Of a stretch of DNA of 63,659 bases, positions 54,769 to 63,133 are shown piece after piece. The stretch lies in NCBI GenBank assembly GCA_902777125.1, contig CACYSQ010000019.1, positions 1-63,659 of the forward strand. The letters are read 5' to 3'. How positions within the stretch are numbered: the stretch's first letter is position 1; every line of letters begins with the position of its first letter. This DNA is from Ruminococcus flavefaciens (GTDB lineage Bacteria; Bacillota; Clostridia; Oscillospirales; Ruminococcaceae). Made by a program: the position numbers and the translations under genes. The notes beneath the pieces were generated by a model that was given only the letters and a program-made list of their open reading frames with translations, searched no databases and was not told the DNA's origin.

Positions 54769-56139
54769 ATGATCCATAAGTATAAACTAAGCGGATTCAA
54801 TATTGTTCTCGATATCAACAGCGGCGGCGTTCATATTGTGGACGAGCTTACATACGACCTCCTCGATAATGTTGAGCCTCCCTTTGAGGAAAAATGTCCC
54901 GCTAAAGTCGTAGATAAGCTCTCAAAGGTCTACTCCTCCGAGGACATCGAGTCCTGCTATCAGGAGATCGTTGAGCTTTACAATGACAAGATCCTCTTCT
55001 CCGATGACGACTATGAAAAGTACGCAAACGTTTCGGTCGCTTCTCCGGTAAAGGCTATGTGCCTCAATATCGCCCACGACTGCCAGCTCAGATGCAAGTA
55101 CTGCTTCGCCTCGACCGGCGACTTCGGCAAGGGCAGAAAGCTCATGTCCTTCGAGACCGGCAAACACGCGATAGATTTCCTCCTCGAAAAATCCGGCAGC
55201 CGTGAGAACCTCGAGCTCGATTTCTTCGGCGGTGAGCCTCTCATGAACTTCAAGGTCGTAAAGCAGGTCGTTGAGTACGCCCGCTCACGCGAAAAGGAGT
55301 TCAACAAGCACTTCCGCTTCACTATCACGACCAACGGTCTACTCCTCGACGACGAGAAGATCGACTTCATAAACCGCGAGATGTCCAACGTTGTCCTCTC
55401 TATCGACGGAAGAAAGGAAGTCAACGATTATTTCCGCGTCCTCCCCAACGGTCAGGGCTGCTACGATATGATCCTTCCCAAGTACAAGCAGCTCGTCGCA
55501 GGCAGAGGCGACAAGGAGTACTACGTCCGCGGCACCTTCACGAACAAGAACCTCGATTTCTCCAATGACGTTTTCGCCCTCTATGACGCAGGCTTCGACC
55601 AGATCTCGATTGAGCCCGTTGTCGGCGATTCCGATGAGTACGCCCTCACCGAAAGAGACCTCCCGGCTGTTTTCAAGGAGTACGAGATACTCGCACAGAG
55701 GATAATCGACAACGAAAAGACCGGCAAGAAGTTCAACTTCTTCCACTTCATGCTCGACCTCGACCAGGGTCCCTGCGCTATCAAGAGACTTCGCGGCTGC
55801 GGCTGCGGAAACGACTACGTCGCTATCACTCCCGACGGCGATATCTTCCCCTGCCACCAGTTCGTCGGCATAGACGAGTACAAAATGGGCAACATCGACG
55901 AGGGTACCTTCAACCTCGATATGAAAGCCGATTTCGCAAGGGCTCATGTCTACTCCAAACCCGAATGCCGCAAGTGCTGGGCAAAATTCTATTGCAGCGG
56001 CGGCTGTAACGCAAACAATTACCAGTACATGGGCGATATCCATACCGCTCATAAGCTCTCATGTCAGCTCGAAAAGAAGCGTCTTGAGTGCGCTATCATG
56101 ATGAAAGCCGTGAGAATTTTCGGCGAACAGGAAATATAA
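54769..56139 (+). CDS. scfB: SCIFF radical SAM maturase (thioether-forming)
   Basis: A 456-residue radical SAM/SPASM enzyme. The N-terminal RRE-like region binds leader peptides in this family. The SAM cluster motif is CQLRCKYCF; the SPASM cysteines are CGCGNDYV, CHQF and CRKCWAKFYCSGGCN near the C-terminus. The precursor is the preceding gene. No transporter or protease is adjacent. Confidence 0.95.
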   Translation: MIHKYKLSGFNIVLDINSGGVHIVDELTYDLLDNVEPPFEEKCPAKVVDKLSKVYSSEDIESCYQEIVELYNDKILFSDDDYEKYANVSVASPVKAMCLNIAHDCQLRCKYCFASTGDFGKGRKLMSFETGKHAIDFLLEKSGSRENLELDFFGGEPLMNFKVVKQVVEYARSREKEFNKHFRFTITTNGLLLDDEKIDFINREMSNVVLSIDGRKEVNDYFRVLPNGQGCYDMILPKYKQLVAGRGDKEYYVRGTFTNKNLDFSNDVFALYDAGFDQISIEPVVGDSDEYALTERDLPAVFKEYEILAQRIIDNEKTGKKFNFFHFMLDLDQGPCAIKRLRGCGCGNDYVAITPDGDIFPCHQFVGIDEYKMGNIDEGTFNLDMKADFARAHVYSKPECRKCWAKFYCSGGCNANNYQYMGDIHTAHKLSCQLEKKRLECAIMMKAVRIFGEQEI

Positions 56140-61024: not shown

Positions 61025-61256
61025 ACCAAAGCGGACATTACAGCAGCACGGTCATCGGAAAGCCTTTCCGGTGACTGCAAATATACACGAAAAACAAGTT
61101 TTTGACAAGCCCAAGCGCTGCTTTTTCAAGCAGCGCTGATTTTGTGCCGTCCGTTTGTTCACCGGAGGAAATTTTCCTCCGGCTATTTACTTTCCGGACG
61201 TATTGGTGTATAATAAAAATGTACGAAAATGCAATCTTTCCAAAGAGGTGAACGCA

Positions 61257-62549
61257 ATGAGCTTTTCCCCAAAAGAGATACTGAAATTCGTTGAAGAAAA
61301 CGACGTAAAATTCATCAGACTTACTTTCCCGGATTTCGCCGGCAACCTCAAAAATGTCGCAATAATGCCCGACGAGCTGCCGAGAGCCTGCGAGTACGGC
61401 ATACCCTTTGACGCCTCAAGCATTCTTGGCTGCCGCGAGGATATGCTGCTCGTTCCAGATATATCGACCCTTTCTGTTCTGCCGTGGAGACCGCAGTCCG
61501 GCAGAGTTGTACGCTTCTTCTGCTCTCTCAGAAACGCTGACGGTTCGGATTACCGCGGCGATATGCGTACAGAACTGATAAACTACATCAATACCCTCCG
61601 TCTCGACGGTTTTTCCTGCGAAATGGGTACTAAATGCGAGTTCTACCTCTTTGACCTTGACGGCAGAGGTGAGCCGACCCACACTCCCCACGATTTCGGC
61701 GGCTACCTCGACGTCGCACCGCTCGACAAGTGCGAGAACGCCCGCCGCGAGATCTGCCTTTCGCTGGAGGAAATGGGTATGCACCCCAAAAGCTCCTGCC
61801 ACAAACACGGTCCTGCTCAGAACGAAATTGATTTCCGCGAAAGCGAGCCTGTTACCGCTGCGGACAATATGCTCCACTACAAGACCGTCGTTAAGTCCAT
61901 AGCCGCTCAGAACGGGCTTTTTGCCTCGTTCATGCCGAAGCCTCTCCCCGATGAGCACGGCAGCGCTCTCAGCATTCTCCTCAGCGTCCGCAAGAACGGT
62001 GAGCATATCTTCGGCGGAGACCCGGAGGATATGCCGCTTGAGGGAAAATGCTTCATTTCCGGCGTTCTCGGACGTATCCGCGAGATAACTGCCTTCCTCA
62101 ACCCAACCACGAATTCCTATAAGCGTTTCGGCATAGGATATGCCCCGAAATACGTTGACTGGAGCTACGAGAACCGCTCTCAGCTCATAAGGATACCGCG
62201 TACTGCCGGACTTTCTCCGCGTATCGAGCTGCGTTCCGCTGACGCCTGCTGCAATCCGTACATAACCTTCCGGCTGATACTTGCCGCGGGTATCGAGGGT
62301 ATACGTTCCGGCAAGTGCGACCTGCTCGATTCAACACTGAGCCGCAGTGCGACCGAAGTACGCGAGATGCTTCCGCAGTCGCTCGAGGAAGCCCTCGAGA
62401 TCGCTCAGAACAGCAGCTTTGTGCGCGAGAACCTCCCCGATGTGATACTCGACGACCTCTTTGCACAGCTCAGCAAGCAGGTCCAGGAGTATAAGCTTGC
62501 GCGAAGCAAGGACGAGTTCGAGCAGAATTACTACTTTAAGTATGTCTGA
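61257..62549 (+). CDS. Glutamine synthetase homologue lacking metal ligands (probable pseudoenzyme)
   Basis: A 430-residue GS type I fold, aligning end to end with B. subtilis GlnA (PFDASSILG, NPTTNSYKRFG, RSQLIRIP, RIELRSAD). Compared with the Salmonella and Bacillus residues, metal ligand Glu129 is Lys126, Glu212 is Lys183 and His269 is Ser239, while Glu131, Glu220 and Glu357 (128, 190, 324) remain. The flap Glu in GYEAP is deleted (GYAP, near 295). The Asp of the ammonium site stays (Asp52). Activity is unlikely. AGAGGTG precedes ATG 61257. The ANTAR gene follows by 8 nt. Confidence 0.75.
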   Translation: MSFSPKEILKFVEENDVKFIRLTFPDFAGNLKNVAIMPDELPRACEYGIPFDASSILGCREDMLLVPDISTLSVLPWRPQSGRVVRFFCSLRNADGSDYRGDMRTELINYINTLRLDGFSCEMGTKCEFYLFDLDGRGEPTHTPHDFGGYLDVAPLDKCENARREICLSLEEMGMHPKSSCHKHGPAQNEIDFRESEPVTAADNMLHYKTVVKSIAAQNGLFASFMPKPLPDEHGSALSILLSVRKNGEHIFGGDPEDMPLEGKCFISGVLGRIREITAFLNPTTNSYKRFGIGYAPKYVDWSYENRSQLIRIPRTAGLSPRIELRSADACCNPYITFRLILAAGIEGIRSGKCDLLDSTLSRSATEVREMLPQSLEEALEIAQNSSFVRENLPDVILDDLFAQLSKQVQEYKLARSKDEFEQNYYFKYV

Positions 62550-62557
62550 GGTAGCCG

Positions 62558-63133
62558 ATGATGAACAGAGCATTGATAGTTGACCCTTCATCCGATACCG
62601 CTGAGCTCATTCGTCAGCAGCTCACAGCGGAGGGCTACGGCGTCATTGCGGCAGTCACCTCGGGAAGCGAGGCGCGAAGACTCATCGCAGGCGATGCCGA
62701 GCCGGAGCTTGTGGTCATAAATACGCCTCTGCCGGACGAATTCGGGCAGGAGCTCTCGGTAATGATAGCCGAAAATACCTCCGCCGGGATAATCCTGATA
62801 TGCAGCGGAGACATTGCGGACGACGTCGGTGACAAGGTCTCGGGCAGCGGTGTATGCGTCATATCCAAGCCGCTGAACGTCCACCAGCTAAGCCGTTCGG
62901 TAAAGCTTGTGAGCGCGACACGTTCGCGAATGATGGGACTGAAAAAGGAAAACGCCGACCTCCTGACGAGGATCGACGAGATGCGGCTCATAAACCGTGC
63001 AAAGTGTACGCTTATGCAGTATCTCAAGTTCACCGAGCCGCAGGCGCATAAGTACATCGAGAAGCAGGCGATGAATACCCGTCAGACACGCCGTGAGGTC
63101 GCAATGAGAATACTCGCAACATATGAGCGATAG
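62558..63133 (+). CDS. ANTAR-domain antiterminator with a receiver lacking the phospho-Asp
   Basis: A 191-residue protein: N-terminal CheY-like receiver (1-120), coiled coil, and a C-terminal ANTAR RNA-binding domain (about 135-180). The phosphorylation Asp is Asn55 (VVINTPLPD), and the second acidic pocket residue is Pro10 (IVDPSS); the Lys (ISKPLN) remains. Phosphorylation is unlikely. It resembles the NitR-type antiterminators found next to glnA in clostridia. ATGs at 62558 and 62561 are both possible. Confidence 0.82.
   Translation: MMNRALIVDPSSDTAELIRQQLTAEGYGVIAAVTSGSEARRLIAGDAEPELVVINTPLPDEFGQELSVMIAENTSAGIILICSGDIADDVGDKVSGSGVCVISKPLNVHQLSRSVKLVSATRSRMMGLKKENADLLTRIDEMRLINRAKCTLMQYLKFTEPQAHKYIEKQAMNTRQTRREVAMRILATYER

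Follow-up and report, generated by a model that had tools for sequence, protein, structure and literature searches.

In C. saccharobutylicum, nitR adjoins glnA and the glutamine synthetase (GS) of this pair is the enzyme under regulation; in B. subtilis and Paenibacillus, GS is an active enzyme and its partners, TnrA and GlnR, bind DNA. The sensors AmiC and NasS, which bind amides or nitrate/nitrite, belong to families other than GS. NitR, an ANTAR protein, induces the GS/GOGAT genes of C. saccharobutylicum on nitrogen limitation, and a review (PMC6316151) describes the role of GS-linked NitR in nitrogen control as not fully understood. In the AmiC-AmiR and NasS-NasT systems the ANTAR protein is kept inactive through contact with a metabolite-binding partner (PMC3795266), and AmiR is a pseudo-receiver (PMC3369936). 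ANTAR leader RNAs, as presented by Ramesh 2012 (PMC3369931), are A1/G4 hexaloop hairpins overlapping an intrinsic terminator, and the targets named there include nitrogen genes, ammonium transporters and glutamate/glutamine synthases.

The locus analysed here lies in a 63,659-nucleotide stretch of Ruminococcus flavefaciens DNA (the window). It resembles a NitR-type pair in that a GS homologue gene (GS_A) adjoins an ANTAR gene (ANTAR_A) on the same strand, with ANTAR-type elements found 5' of gltB, a type III GS gene (GSIII) and amtB. It differs from such a pair in that GS_A has lost catalytic residues and that its own operon has no leader element, the leaders being at GSIII, amtB and gltB. As in AmiC-AmiR and NasS-NasT, the ANTAR protein is predicted to be a non-phosphorylated pseudo-receiver (N55), but the candidate sensor has a GS fold and not that of the AmiC or NasS families, and contact between the two partners would here have to be assumed. 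Precedent for GS as the nitrogen sensor of a regulator comes from the GS-TnrA and GS-GlnR-peptide structures of B. subtilis and Paenibacillus, which are among the listed fold matches of GS_A; unlike these GSs, GS_A does not retain R62.

A glutamine synthetase homologue and its ANTAR partner

The GS_A gene (P0001, 430 aa) occupies positions 61257-62549 of the forward strand, from an ATG at 61257 to a stop codon ending at 62549, with an RBS-like AGAGGTG immediately 5' and a start Met common to GS_A and eight aligned relatives of its type (A-type). Both GS domains, beta-grasp (PF03951, Gln-synt_N, 9.1e-18) and catalytic (PF00120, Gln-synt_C, 3.2e-75), score above their Pfam cut-offs. The AF2 model is confident (pLDDT 91.7, pTM 0.92) and its top folds among the matches listed are type I GSs (TMq 0.88-0.92), the nearest solved folds listed including the type I GSs of M. 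mazei, P. polymyxa and B. subtilis. The complete GS fold proposed by a first-pass annotation of this DNA is thus borne out by domains, model and fold matches alike. GS_A nevertheless scores 312 bits against the active-GlnA equivalog TIGR00653, below the cut-off of 429.15 bits.

Residue numbers follow Salmonella GS and, like the roles assigned to GS positions, are taken from general knowledge; pairwise residue calls refer to M. mazei GlnA (8s59). Three of the six metal ligands are gone in GS_A, E131, E220 and E357 being present. Lysines stand at E129 of the n2 site (K126, codon 61632-61634) and E212 of the n1 site (K183, 61803-61805), and a serine at H269 of the n2 site (S239, 61971-61973). These are the Lys, Lys and Ser of the first-pass annotation; alignment to the GlnA structure does not restore the ligands, and the losses recur in all 46 A-type orthologues examined (Lys or Arg, Lys, and no His, respectively). 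The annotation had also read the catalytic flap Glu as deleted, and this needs correction. Pairwise, the flap GYEAP indeed becomes GY-AP, and the flap is one residue shorter; in the wider, multi-sequence alignment, Glu327 itself is replaced by Tyr295 (codon 62139-62141), and the one-residue deletion is shared with ANTAR-linked GSs whose Glu is intact (e.g. RF-GSFEAP). The Glu is lost on either alignment. The ammonium-site Asp and the substrate-binding arginines were rightly said to remain: D50, R321, R344 and R359 are retained, as is R339 in the window copy. With half of the metal ligands and the flap Glu missing, the earlier argument against activity holds at the level of sequence, and the designation of GS_A as a GS pseudoenzyme is supported. 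Eight cysteines (C89, C121, C127, C159, C167, C181, C265 and C332) are invariant across nine A-type proteins and may have a redox or metal role.

The ANTAR_A gene (P0002, 191 aa; 62558-63133, forward strand) begins 8 bp 3' of GS_A, directly downstream as first described, and matches both Pfam ANTAR (5.8e-16) and Response_reg (2.7e-10). Its AF2 model (pLDDT 95.7) best matches EutV bound to RNA (6ww6, TMq 0.81) and also AmiR from the AmiC-AmiR complex. EutV of the EutV-EutW system is phosphorylated, whereas the acceptor position of ANTAR_A is an Asn (N55, codon 62720-62722). Among 195 ANTAR partners, a sample that leans towards the A type, this position is Asn in 148 and Asp in 18, and one acidic-pocket column is Ser in 165, the window copy having D9. 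Given N55 in ANTAR_A itself and so few partners with an Asp, control of ANTAR_A by phosphorylation seems unlikely and control by contact fits better, as the first-pass annotation had suggested.

The genome (97.5% complete) encodes four GSs according to a PF00120 search: GS_A, a second type I homologue (GS_B, B-type) and two with type III domains, one of them encoded on contig C9 close to an AmtB-PII fusion. Two ANTAR proteins are recovered with PF03861, and both adjoin a GSI homologue. GS_B belongs to a second degenerate pair (G000:C2; L238:11207-13096), in which E129 is Ser and the flap Glu and R339 are gone while E212 and H269 are kept; the gene order there is gltB, gltD, GS_B, ANTAR_B and an amidotransferase (purF-like by eye). 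The active GlnA that the annotation proposed to look for elsewhere was not found by the PF00120 search, which recovered no intact type I GS in this genome; two type III GSs are present.

Conservation of the pair and distribution of the losses

Among 60 genomes of the genus, 48 have an A-type GS like that of the window, in matches free of internal stops, and 43 a B-type GS (approximately 40% identical). Partial genes being left out, 46 of the A-type and 40 of the B-type genes were examined, and an ANTAR gene follows each of these 86. No ANTAR gene was found in the stretches fetched around the five canonical GlnAs of the genus. Named carriers of the A type include R. flavefaciens FD-1, Y1, YAD2003, SAb67, MA2007 and XPD3002, and R. 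callidus has a more distant member. The ANTAR gene is the sole conserved neighbour found for the A-type GS; three other window neighbours of the pair, tested as further candidates, occur at 0/43 A-clade loci (flanks of up to 3 kb).

The replacements are nearly uniform within the A type (n=46): E129 is Lys in 41 and Arg in 5, E212 is always Lys, H269 is always absent (35 Ser, 5 Asn, 3 Cys, 2 Thr, 1 Ala) and the flap Glu is Tyr in 42, Phe in 3 and Asn in 1, with E131, E220, E357, D50, R321 and R359 retained in every case. B-type proteins (n=40) have a different pattern: E129 is gone in all (Ser in 37), the flap residue is Thr or Ser in 39, D50 is gone in all and E357 in 16, and H269 is retained throughout. 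Median dN/dS (Nei-Gojobori) is 0.055 for GS_A over 40 pairs with a large median dS (1.03), 0.076 for ANTAR_A (25 pairs), 0.059 for GS_B (31) and 0.046 for ANTAR_B (39). Judged from these substitution patterns, the residue losses of GS_A are not chance decay, the gene being under purifying selection, and the GS-ANTAR pair as a whole is under strong selection in the genus despite the lost catalytic residues.

In the family sample (60 loci taken from matches), a same-strand ANTAR gene accompanies the GS at 57 loci, and the three exceptions (L153-L155) encode canonical GlnAs whose flap is normal; at named loci the gene is present in 80/80. All six metal ligands are retained by 8/8 distinct GS sequences without ANTAR, out of 203 in total, and by 59 of the 195 with ANTAR, the other 136 missing at least one, although flap and ligand counts in this wider sample lean towards the A type, the loci having been picked by similarity to P0001. 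In a GS tree of 125 rows the ANTAR-linked GSs group into a single clade (SH-aLRT 99), within which the 29 A-clade rows are again strongly supported (SH-aLRT 100). Losses in the A clade are stepwise: L199 lacks only E212, a sister group E129 and E212, and the remainder H269 as well. The fewest intact/lost changes on this tree are 8, which is a minimum on one topology, obtained by a short search with active-site columns included, and not a count of events. The degenerate GS, which the first-pass annotation took to be the new point, is not peculiar to this locus: its orthologues form a group found across the genus, two degenerate pairs occur in the same genome, and it belongs to a set of ANTAR-linked GSs in which ligand loss is recurrent. 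The open-licence literature searched yielded no account of a degenerate GS in partnership with an ANTAR protein, and in that respect the point stands.

E131, G265 and R321 are present in 78/78 A-like proteins and R359 in 77/78. The metal positions are changed in the same proteins: 75 have Lys at E212, 76 have Lys or Arg at E129, and the H269 position is not tied to one residue. The part expected to grip the amino acid has therefore been kept and the part doing the chemistry lost. Pairs were also seen on contigs titled as Alistipes, Treponema and Spirochaetaceae MAGs (L180, L221 and L236); these may reflect mis-binning or transfer.

Leader elements and their link to ANTAR proteins

A scanner for A1/G4 hexaloop hairpins overlapping a terminator was run on loci L238-L241 of the same genome and on the window, and matched only the leaders of amtB, gltB and one type III GS gene (GSIII#1), so that the ANTAR-type leaders of this genome lie 5' of amtB-glnK, of gltB(-gltD-GS_B-ANTAR_B) and of a type III GS. 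Within the 63.7-kb window there was no match, either by the scanner (with a stricter display cut-off) or by the model R1 at E values up to 1, and accordingly none in the region upstream of the pair (61030-61256, forward strand). An Rfam scan of four loci gave just two sub-threshold, irrelevant matches. The short-stemmed hexaloop with its A1 and G4, and the overlap of the hairpin with an intrinsic terminator, are both as described for ANTAR target RNAs by Ramesh 2012. The layout appears to differ: in the published one, P1 and P2 are adjacent and both precede the terminator, whereas here the second hairpin seems to come after the first terminator. Directly after a promoter-like sequence (by eye), the amtB leader carries CAGC[AAGGGA]GCTG, which an intrinsic terminator overlaps, with a second hairpin, CATACAC[AAAGGG]GTGTATG, 3' of that terminator. 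Across the amtB loci (L241-L270) the two hexaloop hairpins are about 60 nt apart with the terminator between them, the first being at the presumed 5' end (start sites by eye).

The element is present 5' of amtB in 29/29 placed loci out of 30 fetched, a count that omits the unplaced L262, whose genome does have the element in its leader. For gltB the figure is 27/29: a loose rule gives 28, one of which (L286) is a chance match in a misplaced start; L293, with 3 nt of upstream sequence, was dropped, and L299 (genome G059) has no hairpin. The 13 GSIII loci closest to the gene on C1 of this genome (L301-L313) include 10 with C[AANGGC]G hairpins. The three others are L307, from a genome with a B pair only (G009), and L310 and L311, from genomes in which no GS-ANTAR pair was found (G034 and G057). 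The other 17 GSIII loci, a less similar group, do not have the C[AANGGC]G loop and include three loose-rule matches.

Pairing in the antiterminator stem reaches 97.9% over 24 aligned leaders, and the stem contains 22 double-change cells, a number reached in 0/500 shuffles, although the shuffles disregard the relatedness of the leaders; the numbers of pairs with a double change (2) and of further pair types (4) are not above shuffles, so that two of five covariation measures fail. Sliding the stem by 1-3 columns lowers pairing to 26-41%, and 7/12 pairs of the terminator stem show a double change. Pairing and covariation thus support both of the predicted, mutually exclusive structures.

A leader before the A-type operon itself was considered and rejected: 1/76 A-like upstream regions has one, and that one (L053) belongs to a B-position gene classed as A-like by its E212K. 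Strict elements do occur 5' of 9/59 intact ANTAR-linked GS genes, versus 1/600 control windows inside GS genes and the 1/76 A-like regions. On this basis the ancestor may plausibly have been a glnA-ANTAR operon that regulated itself, the dead-GS pair now lying outside its own regulon. The A-only genomes G016, G030 and G047, in which no B pair was found, keep the element 5' of an amtB homologue, as do the B-only genomes G009, G058 and G059 at amtB; the gltB region of G047 does not have it. It seems that both pairs, A and B, recognise one kind of element.

In the genome of the window, R1 finds amtB (1.9e-7), gltB (1.6e-6) and GSIII#1 (9.4e-6), the next match being at 0.18; all three were in the training set, and it is the absence of others that is informative. 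Across the genus, 40 of 54 genomes with a GS-ANTAR pair have an R1 match versus 0 of 6 without (p 7.7e-4), a genome being scored as ANTAR-bearing through a GS-ANTAR-type match and not an ANTAR search. Across the family, the match is present in 65 of 156 genomes with an ANTAR protein (absent from 91) and in 2 of the 42 that have none (p 1.9e-6). Both searches used stricter filters, under which one of the three own-genome matches is lost, and the Fisher tests count related genomes as independent.

No strong type I GS match was obtained in 36 of the 156 ANTAR-bearing family genomes, and these have the element in the same share (15/36) as those with a GS (50/120). In eight of them (L370-L377) the 5 kb surrounding the ANTAR gene (about 2 kb on each side) contain no type I GS. 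The ANTAR neighbours at five of the eight (L370, L371, L374, L375 and L376), all from genomes that have the leader element, look by eye like genes of the diaminopimelate pathway (diaminopimelate epimerase/aminotransferase); at L371 a weak, type III-like GS-profile match adjoins the ANTAR gene. As the element is present where ANTAR has no GS homologue beside it, the leaders tie the ANTAR protein, and not the GS, to the targets; judging from these genomes, an ANTAR protein can evidently serve the leaders in the absence of a GS neighbour.

Sixteen matches from outside the training set were fetched, namely three from the genus that are off the known targets, together with 13 of the 14 top-ranking matches from outside it. 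Thirteen lie 5' of nitrogen genes (10 GSIII, 2 AmtB-PII fusion, 1 asparagine synthase), although orthologues of the leaders used in training may be among them; the other three are 5' of a GH53 gene, 5' of a circularly permuted ATP-grasp gene and past the end of an opposite-strand gene. Very probably the ANTAR switch turns on ammonia-assimilation genes, including a GS of another type. The asparagine synthase leader is from a single relative (L354, G001:C10), and the circularly permuted ATP-grasp protein (L366, G127:C5) is a possible nitrogen-regulated ligase.

A proposed sensing mechanism and its alternatives

The reading that we favour, and hold to be probable though well short of secure, is that GS_A is a catalytically dead, fold-intact nitrogen sensor subunit controlling the ANTAR antiterminator by contact, with the contact, its ligand and its sign all being our proposal. 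Since E131, G265, R321 and R359 are kept, residues that presumably hold the alpha-amino and alpha-carboxyl groups of the ligand, the pocket of GS_A may still bind an amino acid reporting nitrogen status, with glutamine as the first candidate and glutamate as the second. Lys126 and Lys183 may substitute for the two metal ions. Glutamine feedback through R62, which we take to be the feedback residue of B. subtilis GS, was discarded as the sensing mode of the A clade: this position is deleted in 78/79 A-like GSs, and any glutamine sensing cannot therefore copy the B. subtilis mode. When nitrogen is plentiful, contact with ligand-bound GS_A would keep the ANTAR protein inactive, much as AmiR is held by AmiC and NasT by NasS. 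When nitrogen falls, the ANTAR protein would be freed, dimerise and bind the hexaloop hairpins, allowing RNA polymerase to pass the terminators. A dead type I GS would in this way gate transcription of a type III GS, an ammonium transporter and glutamate synthase. A broader version, in which a type I GS became a dedicated nitrogen sensor in more than one lineage of Ruminococcus and relatives, lysines replacing one ligand per metal site to leave a metal-free amino-acid pocket, and the dead GS sequestering a pseudo-receiver ANTAR protein that switches on type III GS, amtB-glnK and glutamate synthase, is offered tentatively, as a proposition we would put slightly below even.

The existence of ANTAR-bearing genomes with no strong type I GS match (36 in the family) lowers our confidence in the GS-sensor reading and raises it for two alternatives. 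The ANTAR protein could be regulated otherwise, by a distant kinase or a live type III GS, with the neighbouring GS a mere companion in expression. The same leaders in 15 of those 36 genomes, whose ANTAR protein has no GS neighbour, are what such a scheme would look like, as are the Response_reg match of ANTAR_A, the Asp kept in 18/195 partners and the type III-like GS homologue beside the ANTAR gene of G066. We nonetheless think it improbable, as Asn occupies the acceptor position of ANTAR_A and of 148/195 partners, one acidic-pocket column is Ser in 165/195 (though ANTAR_A has D9), and the GS-ANTAR linkage holds in 86/86 genes while the other surroundings of the A type vary. Alternatively, GS_A might have another enzymatic activity, as a ligase or as a gamma-glutamyl transferase on another substrate, its link to ANTAR being incidental co-expression. 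Strong purifying selection and the kept E131, E220 and E357 would also suit an altered active site, and family ANTAR proteins elsewhere manage without a GS neighbour. The replacement of E212 by Lys in 75/78 and of E129 by Lys or Arg in 76/78 A-like proteins, with H269 unconstrained, looks more like relaxed catalysis, and the ligands lost differ by lineage while the ANTAR neighbour is constant; another activity is accordingly a rather unlikely explanation.

Less likely still is a role for the dead GS as structural subunit or brake of another GS in a mixed oligomer, and not as partner of ANTAR. Type I GSs form dodecamers (titles of 8s59 and 8tfb), which dead subunits could tune, but the 97.5%-complete genome shows no intact type I GS to join, its other members being the degenerate GS_B and two type III GSs. 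That the locus is a decaying pseudogene pair kept through recent common descent would explain the lost catalytic residues, and can hardly be maintained against A-type matches free of internal stops in 48/60 genus genomes and a dN/dS of 0.055.

Under the sensor reading, a GS lineage that should not catalyse separates sensing from catalysis, and binding and regulation can be tested with no enzyme activity to interfere. If that reading is true, a pseudoenzyme controls the replacement enzyme for the same reaction. The system also offers an RNA element that is concrete and covaries, together with a regulon of modest size, in bacteria of the gut and rumen (R. flavefaciens, for example).

Elsewhere in the window, positions 54769-56139 encode a radical SAM protein (Pfam Radical_SAM, 1.3e-12), with C-terminal Cys motifs that we take to be reminiscent of peptide maturases.
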